From NCBI GenBank assembly GCA_016186945.1, contig JACPKR010000027.1:43969-58759 (forward strand): DNA of 14,791 nt, in the 5' to 3' direction. Positions 5,780 to 14,423 of this stretch are shown piece after piece (within the stretch, counting starts at the first letter, position 1; the number at the start of each line of letters is the position of its first letter). The notes beneath the pieces were generated by a model. That model saw nothing but the letters and a program-made list of their open reading frames with translations, was not told the DNA's origin and did not search any database. The DNA comes from Deltaproteobacteria bacterium (GTDB taxonomy: Bacteria > Bdellovibrionota_B > Oligoflexia > Oligoflexales > Bog-1112). The translations under genes and the position numbers were made by a program.

Positions 5780-6187
5780 TTATTTTTGCTCTTCCGCCCC
5801 TGATTTTTCAAGGGGAGACTCTGCAGGAATTTGATCACTCGCGGGTTGTGTCGGTGGGGATACTACGGCCGGACTTTTGCTTTTCACTGGCTCTCCCCCT
5901 TCGATGGTGGGAACTCCCTGGTTTTCCCCTTTGTGGATCATCGTCGGCACCTTGTGTTTGGGAAGAACCGGCTGGGCGGTGCTAAGGGGTACGAAGCTTT
6001 CCTCCTCATGTACAGAGTAATGCGGGGCGATGATGAAAACATTGCCCTTTGCGTCTATTTCCACATCGACTTTTTTTAATTCCTGGCTGAAAGCACTCGA
6101 AATGTCGGTACCGTTCAAATAAACACTTCGTGCCAGCAAGCTTGGAGACGCCCCTATGGAAACGAAAATGCAAAGTTCCCTTAGCAA
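5780..6187 (-). CDS. Small secreted/periplasmic protein with VYLNG motif and proline-rich tail
   Basis: Function unknown. The 135-residue protein starts with a short hydrophobic export-type segment (about 2-19, ending LLARS). A compact region with VYLNGTDIS and VDVEIDAKGNVFI follows at about 21-60, and then a disordered tail rich in Pro, Glu, Ser and Lys. A region of this kind, with an NG-x-DIS turn and a DAKGNV beta-hairpin, is reminiscent of small exported proteins of Bdellovibrio- and myxobacteria-like genomes; that is recall, not a search. The start is TTG at 6185-6187, chosen because GAGGAG lies 6 bases upstream and no better ATG is available. It is the first gene of the minus-strand cluster ending in yggS and is divergent from the LpoB-like gene. 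The signal peptide is marginal and could be a membrane anchor. Confidence 0.66.
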   Translation of the reverse strand: MLRELCIFVSIGASPSLLARSVYLNGTDISSAFSQELKKVDVEIDAKGNVFIIAPHYSVHEEESFVPLSTAQPVLPKHKVPTMIHKGENQGVPTIEGGEPVKSKSPAVVSPPTQPASDQIPAESPLEKSGAEEQK

Positions 6188-6248
6188 AATGTTCTCCTCT
6201 TCGCTATTATATCAAACCGTCATTGAAAATGGGAGAGAGGTACAATTC

Positions 6249-6860
6249 ATGAAGTTCAGAAGTATTTTAATTTCAAGTGTCATGGGCCTACCCGCATTCT
6301 TTTCTGCTTGTGATCCTGCCTTCCAGGCAGAATATTCCAACCCCGACGCCGTAGAAATCGTCGATGACCGGTGGAATGAGACAGATGCGCGAAAGACTGC
6401 GGAAATTCTTATCAGCTCCATGCTTTCCAAACCATGGTTGAACGAGTTCAACCGCGCACACGGACAAAAACCTATTCTAATCGTGGATGATATCGAAAAC
6501 AGCACAGCCGAACATATCGACACGAAGGCTATTGGTGAAGCTTTGCTGCACGAGTTGATTAATTCCGGGCAAATTCGCTTCGTAGACGCTTCACGCCGCG
6601 ACAAGATTCTAAAAGAGGTAAAGTACCAGCAGGAAAGTGGGATGGTTGCCGAGGCTTCACGCAAAAAGACGGGGCGACAGATGGGCGCAGATTTCCTGAT
6701 GGGCGGAGGGATCTCCACCCAGGTTCATATGCAAGGTGGGCTTAAGACAGTGTCCTACACAACCTTTCTCAAGCTCACCAATCTGGAAACTGCAGAAGTT
6801 GTCTGGACGGAAAAGTATGATATAAAGAAGCGCTTCAAACGTTCTGGAGCAGGTTGGTAA
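6249..6860 (+). CDS. lpoB: Penicillin-binding protein activator, LpoB family lipoprotein
   Basis: LpoB-family lipoproteins reach across the periplasm to stimulate the bifunctional peptidoglycan synthase PBP1B. The protein has 203 residues from the ATG at 6249, chosen because GGGAGAGAGG lies 8 bases upstream and a lipoprotein signal follows directly. An in-frame ATG at 6156 would bury that signal. The lipobox is FFSAC with Cys21. The domain matches LpoB in WNETDARKTAEILISSML, KPWLNEF, KPILIVDDIENSTAEHIDT, GQIRFVD, GADFLMGGGIS and LTNLETAEVVWTEKYDIKK. The residue after Cys21 is Asp, which in enteric bacteria retains lipoproteins in the inner membrane, whereas E. coli LpoB is outer-membrane; the rule may not hold here. 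It is followed after 24 bases by a COG3014-type lipoprotein, a pairing seen in other bacteria. Confidence 0.88.
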   Translation: MKFRSILISSVMGLPAFFSACDPAFQAEYSNPDAVEIVDDRWNETDARKTAEILISSMLSKPWLNEFNRAHGQKPILIVDDIENSTAEHIDTKAIGEALLHELINSGQIRFVDASRRDKILKEVKYQQESGMVAEASRKKTGRQMGADFLMGGGISTQVHMQGGLKTVSYTTFLKLTNLETAEVVWTEKYDIKKRFKRSGAGW

Positions 6861-6884
6861 TAACATCTCTTGATTGTGAACTTT

Positions 6885-8153
6885 ATGCGCCTTCTTTCGC
6901 TTGTTTCTTTATCGTTTTTCCTTGCCCACTGTGCGTCCTACACTGACGAAATCAAGGCGATGCGCGATGACTTCGTCGGGTCGCACTACAGTGCCGCGCT
7001 TGAGAAGATGGACAAATCATCCCTCCGGGAAAGCCAGAAAAATCGCCTTCTCTTCCATATGGAGAAAGCGATGATCCTCGACCGCATGGGAAAATTGCAA
7101 GACTCCCGCGCCCTCCTGTCGCGAGCCGATCAGATTGCAGACGAACTTTACACAGTCAGCATCACCAAAACGGCTGCTACCTTCATCGTGAACGAGAGCG
7201 TCGCTGACTATGCGGGCGAAGATTATGAAAAGGTGGCCATCCACACGATCATGGCGCTTTCCTACCTGGAAGAAGGAACTCTTAAAGAAGCAAGGGTCGA
7301 GGCAAAGAAAATTTCCTTGAAACTTGCGGAAATTACCCAAAAGTACGATCCCCAGCACGCCGGTTATAAGGAGGACGCTTTTGCCCTTTTCCTTTCCGGC
7401 ATCATTTTCGAAGCACTAGAGCAATGGGACGATGCCATCATCGACTATCGACAGGCATTTGGTCTTTTCAGCAGCTCGGCCTATTCGAAATTCTACGAAG
7501 GGCCTATCCCTCCTTCCCTTGTGACATCGCTGTACGGTGTTGCGAAAAAAAGGAACCGCTCTGATGTCCTGAAAGATTTGAAAGATCGTTTTCCCGATCT
7601 TCTTGCCAAAGCCGACGGACTTCCCAAGGGGGGAGACCTCGTGGTGATCCATGAGGCGGGAAACATCGTAACGAAGACCGCAAAGGACTTTGTTCTTCCG
7701 ATCAGCGGGCAAATCATCCGCTTCTCTTTCCCCGTCATTGAGAAAAAGAAAATCGCCTGGCAAAACACTATCAACGGCGTCAACATCGACGGTGTGTTCC
7801 ACGACGCCTCTAACCTTGCCAACATGAACGGCATCGCTTACCAATGTCTGGAAGACCGAAGGGGGCGCCTGATCCTGAAAAGTGCTGCACGGCTTATCAC
7901 AAAGGCGAAACTGGTTGATGAAGCTCACAAGAACTTCGGGCCTCTTGGAGGTATCGCTGCTAACATTTTCGCAGCAGCTACGGAAACAGCAGATACACGA
8001 AGTTGGACTTTCCTCCCCCAAGCGTTCTACATCACACGGGTACGCCTATCCCCTGGCAAGCATGATTTGGAAATCAAAACAGCAGGCAGAATTTCTCAAA
8101 TGCAGACGGTTGACGTGAAAGAAGGTGAAATCACCCTTCTGCGTTCGAAATGA
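6885..8153 (+). CDS. COG3014-like TPR-type lipoprotein, partner of LpoB
   Basis: Probably an envelope lipoprotein; the family (COG3014) is uncharacterised but often lies beside lpoB. The protein has 422 residues from the ATG at 6885. TTG at 6870 and GTG at 6876 are in-frame alternatives; none has a convincing SD, so coupling to the upstream stop at 6860 is likely. The signal runs MRLLSLVSLSFFLAHC, with a slightly unusual His before Cys16. Residues about 20-235 look like tetratricopeptide-type helical repeats (SLRESQKNRLLFHMEKAMILD, EALEQWDDAIIDYRQAFG). The C-terminal half is beta-rich, with GDLVVIHEAGN, a KIAWQNTINGVNIDG block and RSWTFLPQAFYITRVRLSPGKHDLEIKT. By position it may assist cell-wall synthesis control; this is inference. 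Confidence 0.82.
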   Translation: MRLLSLVSLSFFLAHCASYTDEIKAMRDDFVGSHYSAALEKMDKSSLRESQKNRLLFHMEKAMILDRMGKLQDSRALLSRADQIADELYTVSITKTAATFIVNESVADYAGEDYEKVAIHTIMALSYLEEGTLKEARVEAKKISLKLAEITQKYDPQHAGYKEDAFALFLSGIIFEALEQWDDAIIDYRQAFGLFSSSAYSKFYEGPIPPSLVTSLYGVAKKRNRSDVLKDLKDRFPDLLAKADGLPKGGDLVVIHEAGNIVTKTAKDFVLPISGQIIRFSFPVIEKKKIAWQNTINGVNIDGVFHDASNLANMNGIAYQCLEDRRGRLILKSAARLITKAKLVDEAHKNFGPLGGIAANIFAAATETADTRSWTFLPQAFYITRVRLSPGKHDLEIKTAGRISQMQTVDVKEGEITLLRSK

Positions 8154-8235: not shown

Positions 8236-8302
8236 AAGAATTCACATGATCTGACCGAAAAACCCTGCGAGATTTCGTAGAAAGGTCCATCGGTTGGTAA
8301 AT

Positions 8303-9289
8303 ATGAAAATAAAAGAACAAATTCTTGTGTTAACGCTAAGCTGCGGACTTAGCTTCGTTTTTTCTTGCCAACCTGAAGTCAAGAAGACGGCTCCACCGAC
8401 TTCTCCCCTTGAGAAGGAGCAAAAGGTAGGCGAGCCGACTGCTCCGACCGCACCCCAGCCTCCCAAGGGAGGAGCGAGTGGCGGGGGTGACGATCCCTTC
8501 GGTGGTTTAGGCGCCTTGCTGGGAGGACTTGGGAGGAAAGGCGGTGCAGGAGGAGGCGGAGCAGCAGCAGCGGGAGGTCCTGAAGGCGCCCAAGGAGGCC
8601 CTGCTGGGGATCCTTCGCAAATACTGCCGTCCCCACGATTCAAAACCCCGTTCCTCTCGTTTCAATTGCACCTGCCGACGAAAAACTCCATGTATGAGTG
8701 CCCTGGGGATTCTTTCTGGGTTGGTACACAAAGTTACTACGATGGTACCGCCAAAGACCGGATCTATCAGGAGACCTGCCAATTTTTCGAAGATGGGTTG
8801 GGCAGACCGTTGAAGAAACAAAACTGCGAAATTAAAAACGCAAGCGATTTTGAGGAAGACTTCGACTTTACCTGTCCCAAAGGCTCACTGCTTTCTGGGC
8901 ATCAAACAAAGTATAGCCCCGACAAGAAAGATCGCCAGCACAGCTTTTCATGTTGCGAGGCCGTGACAGAGGAAGGCAAAAAAGTCGACTTCATCGAACA
9001 ACCCGTTGAGGGCACGGAAGATGTCGCACAGATTTGCGAGCAATCTATCGTGGCACGCCAGACATCTCTCCCACAATTCGCAACGAGAGATGTGAACCCT
9101 GATCACGGATCGGTCGAGTTCAAGTGCCAAAACAAGATTGACACCATGCAAGGCCCGATGGTCGTTGGGTCAATTGTACGAAACGTCAACGCAACTTACT
9201 GGGATAACCTAAAAGACCGAATATTTTCCTTTGAATGCTGTGTGCTCGGAGTCACTCCGGATACTCCCCCAGCGAACCCAGGGAATTAA
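8303..9289 (+). CDS. Lipoprotein with Gly-rich linker and dermatopontin-like cysteine domain
   Basis: The protein has 328 residues from the ATG at 8303. TTG at 8294 is an in-frame alternative, with AAAGG 8 bases ahead of it. The lipobox is FVFSC with Cys22, followed by Gln, which suits outer-membrane sorting. A Pro/Glu-rich stretch and a Gly/Ala-rich linker (about 55-103) lead to a domain at about 130-315 with ten cysteines. Three modules repeat: Cys133-DRIYQETC159, Cys191-DRQHSFSCC218 and Cys275-DRIFSFECC313. Each runs C, then a G-x-x-S/T-like strand, then DR-x(4-5)-C. This is the layout of animal dermatopontin (DRQWNYAC, DREWQFYCC, DRQWKFIMC), including the CPxG opening and a middle module with GxQxxY before DR. 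Dermatopontin is an extracellular adhesion and matrix protein; the bacterial role is unknown. A flagellin starts 8 bp later. Confidence 0.8.
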   Translation: MKIKEQILVLTLSCGLSFVFSCQPEVKKTAPPTSPLEKEQKVGEPTAPTAPQPPKGGASGGGDDPFGGLGALLGGLGRKGGAGGGGAAAAGGPEGAQGGPAGDPSQILPSPRFKTPFLSFQLHLPTKNSMYECPGDSFWVGTQSYYDGTAKDRIYQETCQFFEDGLGRPLKKQNCEIKNASDFEEDFDFTCPKGSLLSGHQTKYSPDKKDRQHSFSCCEAVTEEGKKVDFIEQPVEGTEDVAQICEQSIVARQTSLPQFATRDVNPDHGSVEFKCQNKIDTMQGPMVVGSIVRNVNATYWDNLKDRIFSFECCVLGVTPDTPPANPGN

Positions 9290-9297
9290 GGGAAGAG

Positions 9298-10236
9298 ATG
9301 GGCTTTAATATTTCCGACAACGCGATCCTTGCTCAGTTGCAACGCAACCTAGCCAAGGCCAAAGACGAGCAAGCCGACACGATTGGAAAACTTTCTACGG
9401 GCAAAGTCTTCACACAGCAAGACCCCCGTCCCGCTGATCGCGCCATCGCGGAAAGCATGGAGTATCGCATCCGCTCGCTCAATACAGCCAAGCGTAACGT
9501 CAATGACTCCATCTCCCTGCTGAATACAGCAGAGTCCGGGATGAACGAAATTGCAAACATCATCACCCGCATGAAGGAAATCAACCTCACGGCCGCAAGC
9601 TCAACTATAAGCAACCAGGAACGACGCTATCTCTTCATCGAATACGAAGCCCTCCACGATGAGGTAAACCGCATTACGAAGACGACGGAATTCAACGGTA
9701 TCCCTCTTCTCTACGGCGCATCTGACAAGGTGCCTGATACCATGGTCTTTCGCCTCGGAGACCCGTACCTGGAAGAGTCTTTCTTCGGCCGTGGACAAGA
9801 CGTCAATACCATCACATTTGCAGATATCAAAAATGTAAATACAACAACAGAAGCACTGGGCTTGCAAAGCGCTCGGGAACTTCTCGAAGACACTAACGAT
9901 ATCGAAGGGGTTGAATTGGAAGATATCGAAGACTTTATCATTCCCGAGGAAGACGACATCTTCCCAACGAGCTACGATCAAGCTCTTACGGTGCTTTCAA
10001 CCAGTCGTTCTATATACGGCGCCCTGCAGTCGCGATTTAATCGAGTTCTCGATTACATTGATGTCTACCAGGAGAACATTGAAGCCGCAAAATCCAAGAT
10101 CACCGATACCGACTACGCGCAGGAAGTCACGAACCTGCTTAAATCCAAGGTCCTGATCAACGCCAACACAGCCTTACTCGCCCAAAGCGCAATCGACGCC
10201 CAGCAGACTCTTCAGCTTCTCAACGCCGTCACCTAG
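9298..10236 (+). CDS. Flagellin (divergent, short central domain)
   Basis: Structural subunit of the flagellar filament, exported by the flagellar type III system. The protein has 312 residues from the ATG at 9298; AAGGGA lies 4 bases upstream, and an in-frame ATG at 9235 lies inside the preceding gene. The N-terminal D0/D1 helices (1-140) include KLSTGKVF, NVNDSISLLNTAESGMNEIANIITRMKEI and TEFNGIPLL. The C-terminal helices (226-312) include SRFNRVLDYI, ENIEAAKSKITDTDYAQEV and LLAQSAIDAQQTLQLL. Only a short, strongly acidic middle remains (about 193-222, many Asp/Glu), so no D2/D3 domain. The usual SSGxRINSAxDDAAG block reads STGKVFTQQDPRPADR here, which is unusual. It shares a transcript with the dermatopontin-like lipoprotein. 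No other flagellar gene is nearby, so it is probably one of several flagellins. Confidence 0.9.
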   Translation: MGFNISDNAILAQLQRNLAKAKDEQADTIGKLSTGKVFTQQDPRPADRAIAESMEYRIRSLNTAKRNVNDSISLLNTAESGMNEIANIITRMKEINLTAASSTISNQERRYLFIEYEALHDEVNRITKTTEFNGIPLLYGASDKVPDTMVFRLGDPYLEESFFGRGQDVNTITFADIKNVNTTTEALGLQSARELLEDTNDIEGVELEDIEDFIIPEEDDIFPTSYDQALTVLSTSRSIYGALQSRFNRVLDYIDVYQENIEAAKSKITDTDYAQEVTNLLKSKVLINANTALLAQSAIDAQQTLQLLNAVT

Positions 10237-13221: not shown

Positions 13222-13287
13222 TCTGAAATAGTAGAGTGTATTCGACTTTTTTTTATGATATAGTCATGTATAGTCTACTATTTCAGA
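13222..13287 (+). promoter_or_regulatory. 14-bp perfect inverted repeat, candidate operator upstream of the ATPase
   Basis: TCTGAAATAGTAGA (13222-13235) is the exact reverse complement of TCTACTATTTCAGA (13274-13287). The 38-base AT-rich interval contains a -10-like TATGAT (13254-13259) and two direct copies of TATAGTC (13259-13265 and 13269-13275), ten bases apart, one helical turn. The ATPase start is 14 bases beyond the right arm. The arrangement resembles an operator for looping or cooperative binding by a regulator, or a large stem-loop in the leader. No good -35 was found. Confidence 0.55.
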
Positions 13288-13301
13288 CAAGTGGTGGTAA
13301 G

Positions 13302-14423
13302 ATGGAGAGATATCTAAAATCGTTTATTATCGAAGACTTAAAAGAAAAAATGGTCTTTGTGGGTGGACCCAGGCAGGTGGGAAAAACGACGCTGGCCCTG
13401 AGCCTTTTGAAGGCAGCAGATGAACGCGATCCTGCCTACTTTAACTATGATGATCAAAAGTCCAGGGCTGCAATTTTGGAGGGGCGTTTTCCTGCCCATG
13501 CACCCATCGTTGTTCTGGATGAACTTCACAAATTTAAAAACTGGCGAAATCTTCTAAAGGGCTTTTATGATACGTCTCGAAGCTATAGAAAATTTCTGGT
13601 TACAGGGTCAGCGAGGCTTGATTTCTATAGAAGAGGGGGAGATTCCCTGCAAGGGCGTTATCACTACTACAGACTACACCCACTCCATCTCGATGAAGTT
13701 TCAGATATGGCAAGGCTTCTCGTTTTTGGTGGTTTCCCAGAGCCATACTTTAAAGGTAACAGCAGGCACTGGAATCGCTGGCAGAATGAGCGTCGTGTTC
13801 GCGTCTTGCAAGAGGACCTTATTTCCTTGGAACAGGTACGAGAAGTAAGTCAGGTCGATCTTCTAGCTTCAGTCCTTTCCGATCGGGTGGGGTCTCTGCT
13901 GTCCGTTAAAAACCTCGCAAAAGATCTAGGGGTTGCCTTTGAAACCGCTGATCGTTGGATCGAGATTTTAGAAAATCTGTATTACTGCTTTAGAATTCAA
14001 CCCTACGGAACTAAAGAACTACAAACGACAAAAAAGGAACGAAAGCTCTATATGTGGGATTGGTCTCTATGTCAGACGGCAGGTGCTAGATTTGAAAATT
14101 TCCTCGCATCTTATCTTCTCAAGTACTGCCACTTTCGCCAGGACTACTATGGAGACAATCTGCAGTTAGGATTTCTTCGCGATCGGGAACAGAGAGAAAT
14201 AGACTTTGTGATCATTAAGAATCGAAAAATCATCGCTGGGATCGAATGCAAGACAAATTCCACCGCCATCAGTCCAAACATCAAGTATTTCGCAAAGAAA
14301 ACAAAGATCCCACAGTTCTTTCAATTTCATCAGGGGAGTGAAGATGCAGAGATTATGGAATATAGGACGAGGTGCGTCCCCTTCGCACAAGTTCCTATGA
14401 TATTTCCATGTGGGATGATCTAA
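13302..14423 (+). CDS. AAA ATPase with DUF4143 domain
   Basis: The protein has 373 residues and is full length for the AAA/DUF4143 family. The start ATG at 13302 has only GGTGG ahead of it, but the family usually opens as this one does (MERYL...). The earlier in-frame ATG (13266) and GTG (13236) lie inside the inverted repeat. Walker A is GPRQVGKT (22-29), Walker B is VVLDELHK with Asp73 and Glu74, and TGSARL (101-106) is a sensor-like element. A C-terminal DUF4143 region carries a PD-(D/E)xK-like pattern, Asp301 then E315-x-K317 (EIDFVII...IECK), which suggests a nuclease-type fold. The biological role of this very common family is not settled; roles in mobile DNA or stress have been proposed. 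The stop overlaps the convergent neighbour by 4 bp. It may have been horizontally acquired. Confidence 0.88.
   Translation: MERYLKSFIIEDLKEKMVFVGGPRQVGKTTLALSLLKAADERDPAYFNYDDQKSRAAILEGRFPAHAPIVVLDELHKFKNWRNLLKGFYDTSRSYRKFLVTGSARLDFYRRGGDSLQGRYHYYRLHPLHLDEVSDMARLLVFGGFPEPYFKGNSRHWNRWQNERRVRVLQEDLISLEQVREVSQVDLLASVLSDRVGSLLSVKNLAKDLGVAFETADRWIEILENLYYCFRIQPYGTKELQTTKKERKLYMWDWSLCQTAGARFENFLASYLLKYCHFRQDYYGDNLQLGFLRDREQREIDFVIIKNRKIIAGIECKTNSTAISPNIKYFAKKTKIPQFFQFHQGSEDAEIMEYRTRCVPFAQVPMIFPCGMI

Follow-up and report, generated by a model that had tools for sequence, protein, structure and literature searches.

Dermatopontin is usually regarded as an animal extracellular-matrix protein, and its module is known from animal skin matrix and from shells. 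Its matrix partners are decorin/proteoglycan, collagen and integrin. On the bacterial side, Helicobacter HpaA is a flagellum-associated or sheath adhesin lipoprotein that resembles the protein described here in general terms, as a lipoprotein and proposed adhesin with a flagellar link. In animals, dermatopontin is a matrix protein, and the mammalian protein contains five intramolecular disulphides (PMC7703894). For the dermatopontin genes of choanoflagellates, horizontal acquisition has been proposed; the choanoflagellate dermatopontin/EGF proteins likewise place the dermatopontin (DERM) domain outside animals but are multi-domain, eukaryotic proteins with Ca-EGF domains (PMC7971027). A limited literature search found no account of a bacterial dermatopontin; entries for DERM proteins from bacteria may nonetheless exist already in automated databases. 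Here, we analyze a DERM protein from an uncultured, flagellated bacterium. The window, that is, the whole stretch of 14,791 nucleotides under analysis, spans positions 43969-58759 of contig C15 in a draft genome (G000) of 2.66 Mb and 76 contigs.

Family membership and domain architecture

The open reading frame at 8303-9289 (+) encodes 328 amino acids from an ATG at 8303, or 331 from an in-frame TTG at 8294. The Pfam DERM profile (PF14704) matches its product in two stretches at 67 bits (E 2.9e-18), compared with a curated gathering cut-off of 28.3 bits. No other Pfam or NCBIfam family matches the protein, and 14 control genomes that were searched gave no match. A comparison with the DERM profile had been named as a check by a previous reading of the DNA (hereafter the sequence-only reading), and its outcome is decisive: the profile match shows that the product is, at the level of sequence, a true bacterial member of the DERM family.

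The protein consists of a signal peptide, a low-complexity stalk and a three-module head (Table 1). Its cysteines lie at positions 14, 22, 133, 159, 175, 191, 217, 218, 245, 275, 312 and 313. Each module of the head has a cysteine at its start and a DR-x(n)-C or CC motif at its end; the DR pairs at 152, 210 and 305, with the closing C159, CC217-218 and CC312-313, delimit three tandem DERM modules with the motifs DRIYQETC, GHQTKY...DRQHSFSCC and DRIFSFECC. The sequence-only reading had located the closing cysteines at exactly these positions and had described the three modules and their motifs, GHQTKY and DRQHSFSCC included, as they are present; module 2 is the one that it had likened most closely to animal dermatopontin. 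Furthermore, its proposal of a lipid anchor is supported by the PROSITE-like lipobox at Cys22, and that of a flexible Gly-rich stalk by the composition of the segment (24 Gly in 96 residues). The bacterial protein and animal dermatopontin (PF14704) share the profile, matched well above its cut-off, three modules that each close with DR-x(n)-C or CC and, as predicted for the bacterial side, the number of five disulphides. The bacterial protein differs in its putative lipid anchor, its long stalk and a longer loop in module 3.

Proteins with this lipoprotein-plus-stalk architecture, termed type A, occur in six genomes. The PS51257-like lipobox pattern is strictly matched in three of the six type A proteins, the window protein included; outside the strict pattern, the canonical LISC core is found in one member, and the residue preceding the cysteine is R or Q in the other two. 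Judged by this pattern, a lipid anchor is likely for the type A proteins, if not equally firm across members.

Table 1. Coordinates of the DERM gene, its parts and its neighbours in the window
Feature	Coordinates	Strand	Basis
Sigma-28-like promoter candidate, TCAA-N16-ACCGAAAA	8234..8261	+	3 mismatches, weak alone
Type A DERM lipoprotein gene	8303..9289	+	ORF; Pfam DERM 67 bits, E 2.9e-18; TTG start at 8294 possible
Signal peptide with lipobox-like FVFS-C22 end	8303..8368	+	PROSITE PS51257-like pattern at Cys22
Low-complexity stalk, residues 23-118	8369..8656	+	Composition: 24 Gly, 12 Ala and 16 Pro in 96
DERM module 1 (Cys133, Cys159)	8684..8818	+	Cys positions; predicted beta strands, block pLDDT ~90 or more
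DERM module 2 (Cys175, Cys191, Cys217-Cys218)	8819..8968	+	Best Pfam stretch, residues 130-220, covers modules 1-2; cysteine pairing
DERM module 3 (Cys245, Cys275, Cys312-Cys313)	9020..9256	+	Model, Cys positions, pairing; long low-confidence loop
Divergent flagellin gene	9298..10236	+	8 bp past DERM stop; Flagellin_N 85.6 bits, Flagellin_C 51.9 bits

Predicted cysteine pairing and fold of the DERM head

The three modules of the window protein contain ten cysteines, whose joint loss was analyzed in an alignment of 16 bacterial DERM domains. Cysteines vanish only as pairs, namely 175-218 (in two proteins), 191-217, 245-313 and 275-312, and Cys133 and Cys159 are never lost among the 16 domains. 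When losses of equal sizes were drawn at random, 3% of the draws could be reconciled with one consistent pairing. This pattern of paired loss implies five disulphides in the DERM head (133-159, 175-218, 191-217, 245-313 and 275-312). The number agrees with that of mammalian dermatopontin, a comparison that concerns the number alone and not the pairing.

AlphaFold2 predicts an all-beta architecture of three repeated blocks for the DERM domain of the window protein (pLDDT 80, pTM 0.78) and for that of a paralogue (pLDDT 89, pTM 0.85), the latter model with one helix in a loop. A Foldseek search against the PDB gave no match at E values up to 0.001, and a sequence search of the PDB found no dermatopontin (DERM) structure. 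In second-look alignments with PDB entries, the predicted beta architecture resembled domain III of Vip3 (Z 7.0-7.3 over ~120 residues, best rmsd 3.7-3.9), the C-terminal domain of PCSK9 (Z 2-4.6) and jacalin-type lectins (Z 2-3.7). These proteins have no sequence relation to the DERM head, and the Z scores (2-7.3) are too low for homology. The models thus suggest a beta-prism-like arrangement; because all Z scores are below 8, kinship is not proven, and the likeness may be a mere common arrangement. Among the viral models matched at a probability of 1.00 is a phage 'binding domain' protein. The viral model A0A1S6L1V4 (465 aa) aligned over a short segment of 54 columns with an rmsd of 1.7 and, from its equal length, is probably the DERM-bearing tail protein of Vibrio phage pVa-21.

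Distribution of DERM genes in bacteria and phage

DERM genes are present in all eight genomes (seven genera) of the window's bacterial family, whereas none of 50 other genomes of the phylum exceeded the Pfam cut-off. A profile built from the bacterial DERM members gave a concordant result, apart from a borderline match in G036 (E 3.4e-4, 21.5 bits). Therefore, DERM in this family is a family-specific expansion and not contamination. Contamination by eukaryotic DNA was ruled out by GC and GC3 values like those of the neighbouring genes, by the ordinary bacterial genes on the contig and by the presence of DERM in 8/8 genomes. Type A is found in G000, G002, G003, G004, G005 and G007, and a short secreted DERM protein (type B) in seven genomes (G000, G001, G002, G003, G005, G006 and G007). 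Type C, of ~580 aa with a C-terminal DERM domain, is found in G001 and G004. A tree of the DERM domains contains one well-supported fork and long branches and leaves type A versus types B and C unresolved. The N-terminal ~400 residues of the type C proteins (L028:8414-10120 and L029:1272-3023) have no Pfam match.

In the region L030:8173-11205 (contig C40), the window's own genome carries a second DERM gene, which follows a gene for a eukaryotic-type carbonic anhydrase and faces, in convergent orientation, a gene of the transglutaminase-elicitor family (PF16683). A convergent pair of DERM and a homologue of the latter gene recurs in G001 and G006 (compare L032 and L036). PF16683 itself is found in 50 of 56 genomes of the phylum, often in multiple copies, an unexplained expansion.

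A survey of 383 relatives added only two DERM matches, both outside the phylum. The first, from a bacterium of another phylum (L087:6243-7514), comprises collagen-like repeats followed by a C-terminal DERM module, and the genome search match extends beyond a stop codon. The second (L088) lies at the C-terminus of a long protein resembling a tail fibre and is weak, with the open reading frame scoring 25 bits, under the cut-off. A protein of Pseudoalteromonas sp. NC201 (L045:5668-6459) reaches 118-119 bits; it is likewise bacterial, with a signal-peptide-like N-terminus and three modules, but belongs to a gammaproteobacterium, has no visible lipobox or stalk and lacks two of the five inferred disulphides. 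A minor tail protein of Vibrio phage pVa-21 resembles the window protein in bearing an above-cut-off DERM module (38 bits) at its C-terminal end and differs in being a phage tail protein with a single module. Contig searches with a single protein found no relatives, and those with a four-sequence alignment found four. No DERM was found in 395 Bacteroidetes genomes, by a search that gave no match anywhere, and scans of viral contigs found no additional DERM. One of the four relatives found with the alignment, a Bacteroidetes candidate (L049), was rejected: it is a long protein built of repeats in which CPG...VG motifs occur by chance, and its genome is without a DERM match.

Flagellin neighbour and proposed role of the DERM lipoprotein

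The type A gene and the flagellin gene form an operon-like pair on the same strand in three genera, with gaps of 8 bp in the window and in G005 and 16 bp in G007. The paired flagellins are 46-51% identical across these genera, and the DERM domains are 30-39% identical to that of the window. In G006 and G003, the gene directly ahead of the flagellin orthologue instead encodes a chemotaxis receptor, at distances of 7 and 25 bp, respectively, and G003 keeps its flagellins with the type A gene elsewhere. No flagellin and no FliF match was found in G002 and G004 (drafts 84% and 93% complete), in which the type A lipoprotein is present. The adjacency to flagellin noticed by the sequence-only reading is thus conserved in three genera and is not universal. 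As the lipoprotein also occurs in two aflagellate relatives, it need not be part of a flagellum; DERM and flagellin are probably coupled in some members of the family, in a non-obligatory way.

Sigma-28-like sites were sought within 100 bp upstream of the three pairs. The best site has one mismatch in G005 (P 0.002), three in the window (P 0.06) and four in G007 (P 0.28). The window's site alone is not significant, and the three combined (P 0.002) indicate that such sites are commoner than expected. The corresponding value upstream of type A genes not beside flagellin is P 0.34. A sigma-28-like site with two mismatches likewise accompanies the gene of one secreted paralogue (L030).

An identification of 9298-10236 as FlgL was set aside, given that flagellin models score far higher and the best NCBIfam matches are flagellins. 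This flagellin contains a strongly acidic stretch (ELEDIEDFIIPEEDD) before its C-terminal domain, a trait common to the G003 and G006 orthologues, and the window's genome has seven Flagellin_N loci. Just upstream of the DERM gene, 6156-8153 holds an LpoB-like lipoprotein gene and then a gene for a TPR-containing protein. An ATPase-like open reading frame at 13236-14423, identified by eye, has a GC3 of 0.43, below the rest of the window, and was possibly acquired.

What might a dermatopontin-type head do on a bacterial surface? We propose, with a probability of roughly 0.55, that the window protein is an outer-membrane lipoprotein with an outward, surface-binding head for adhesion or recognition, and that in some genera its production alongside a minor flagellin matches adhesion to motility. 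The lipid anchor would hold the protein in the outer membrane, and the flexible Gly/Ala/Pro stalk would bear a head of three disulphide-stapled beta modules that would face outside. The beta-module surface may bind a glycan or another surface polymer, making the protein an adhesin or a surface-recognition head. In some genera, the protein would be produced together with the minor flagellin, probably from a sigma-28-type promoter, and this co-production would tune adhesion to the motile state. Three features favour an outward adhesive or glycan-recognizing head: the predicted anchor with its stalk, the resemblance of the modelled fold to known domains and the position of DERM at the tips of a phage tail protein and a collagen-like stalk. 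DERM ends the collagen-like, Pseudoalteromonas and Vibrio phage tail proteins, which points to a surface-recognition tip. An adhesin role of the DERM lipoprotein is plausible.

The pairing with flagellin could also be an incidental neighbourhood without functional coupling, which would be compatible with either a recognition or a matrix role of the head. The different gene order in G003 and G006 and the persistence of the lipoprotein in aflagellate relatives fit such a neighbourhood. However, the order is kept in three genera despite the low identity of their DERM domains, and sigma-28-like sites are in excess upstream of the pairs; we consider this alternative somewhat doubtful.

A second alternative concerns the target of the head: the protein may be a structural envelope or matrix protein, binding and organizing the exopolysaccharide or surface layer of the cell that makes it, with no foreign target. 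This would parallel the matrix role of dermatopontin in animals (PMC7703894), and the matrix could also include the secreted paralogues, one of which is encoded, in three genomes, convergently with a gene of the transglutaminase-elicitor family. The presence of a DERM module at the end of a phage tail protein speaks instead for recognition of a target, and we consider a purely structural role rather unlikely.

A structural role in the flagellum, such as that of a membrane sheath lipoprotein, in place of one as a free surface adhesin is quite improbable for the protein. The same-strand pairing with the divergent flagellin in three genera (gaps of 8, 8 and 16 bp) and the upstream sigma-28-like sites would suit a flagellar component, but G002 and G004 keep the lipoprotein with no match to flagellin or FliF, and G003 has flagellins and encodes the lipoprotein elsewhere. 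Finally, convergence of the DR and CC motifs in an unrelated cysteine-rich protein, with which the identity of only about 20-40% among members would be consistent, is refuted at the sequence level by the profile E value, the above-cut-off matches in 8/8 related genomes and the cysteine pairing pattern.

Beyond the proposed role as a stalked recognition head, DERM may originally have been a prokaryotic or phage surface-recognition module, placed at the tips of phage tails, on collagen-like stalks and on lipid-anchored stalks, from which the matrix protein of animals arose later; in this lineage, it would be coupled to flagellar expression, with adhesion as part of the motility programme; this scenario is speculative, and we regard it as distinctly unlikely. 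The bacterial DERM proteins are possible reservoirs and, as such, bear on the report of horizontal transfer to choanoflagellates (PMC7971027). A lipid-anchored DERM protein with its cysteine framework, family-wide and paired with flagellin in several genera, may offer a simple system in which to address the ligand and the age of the domain.
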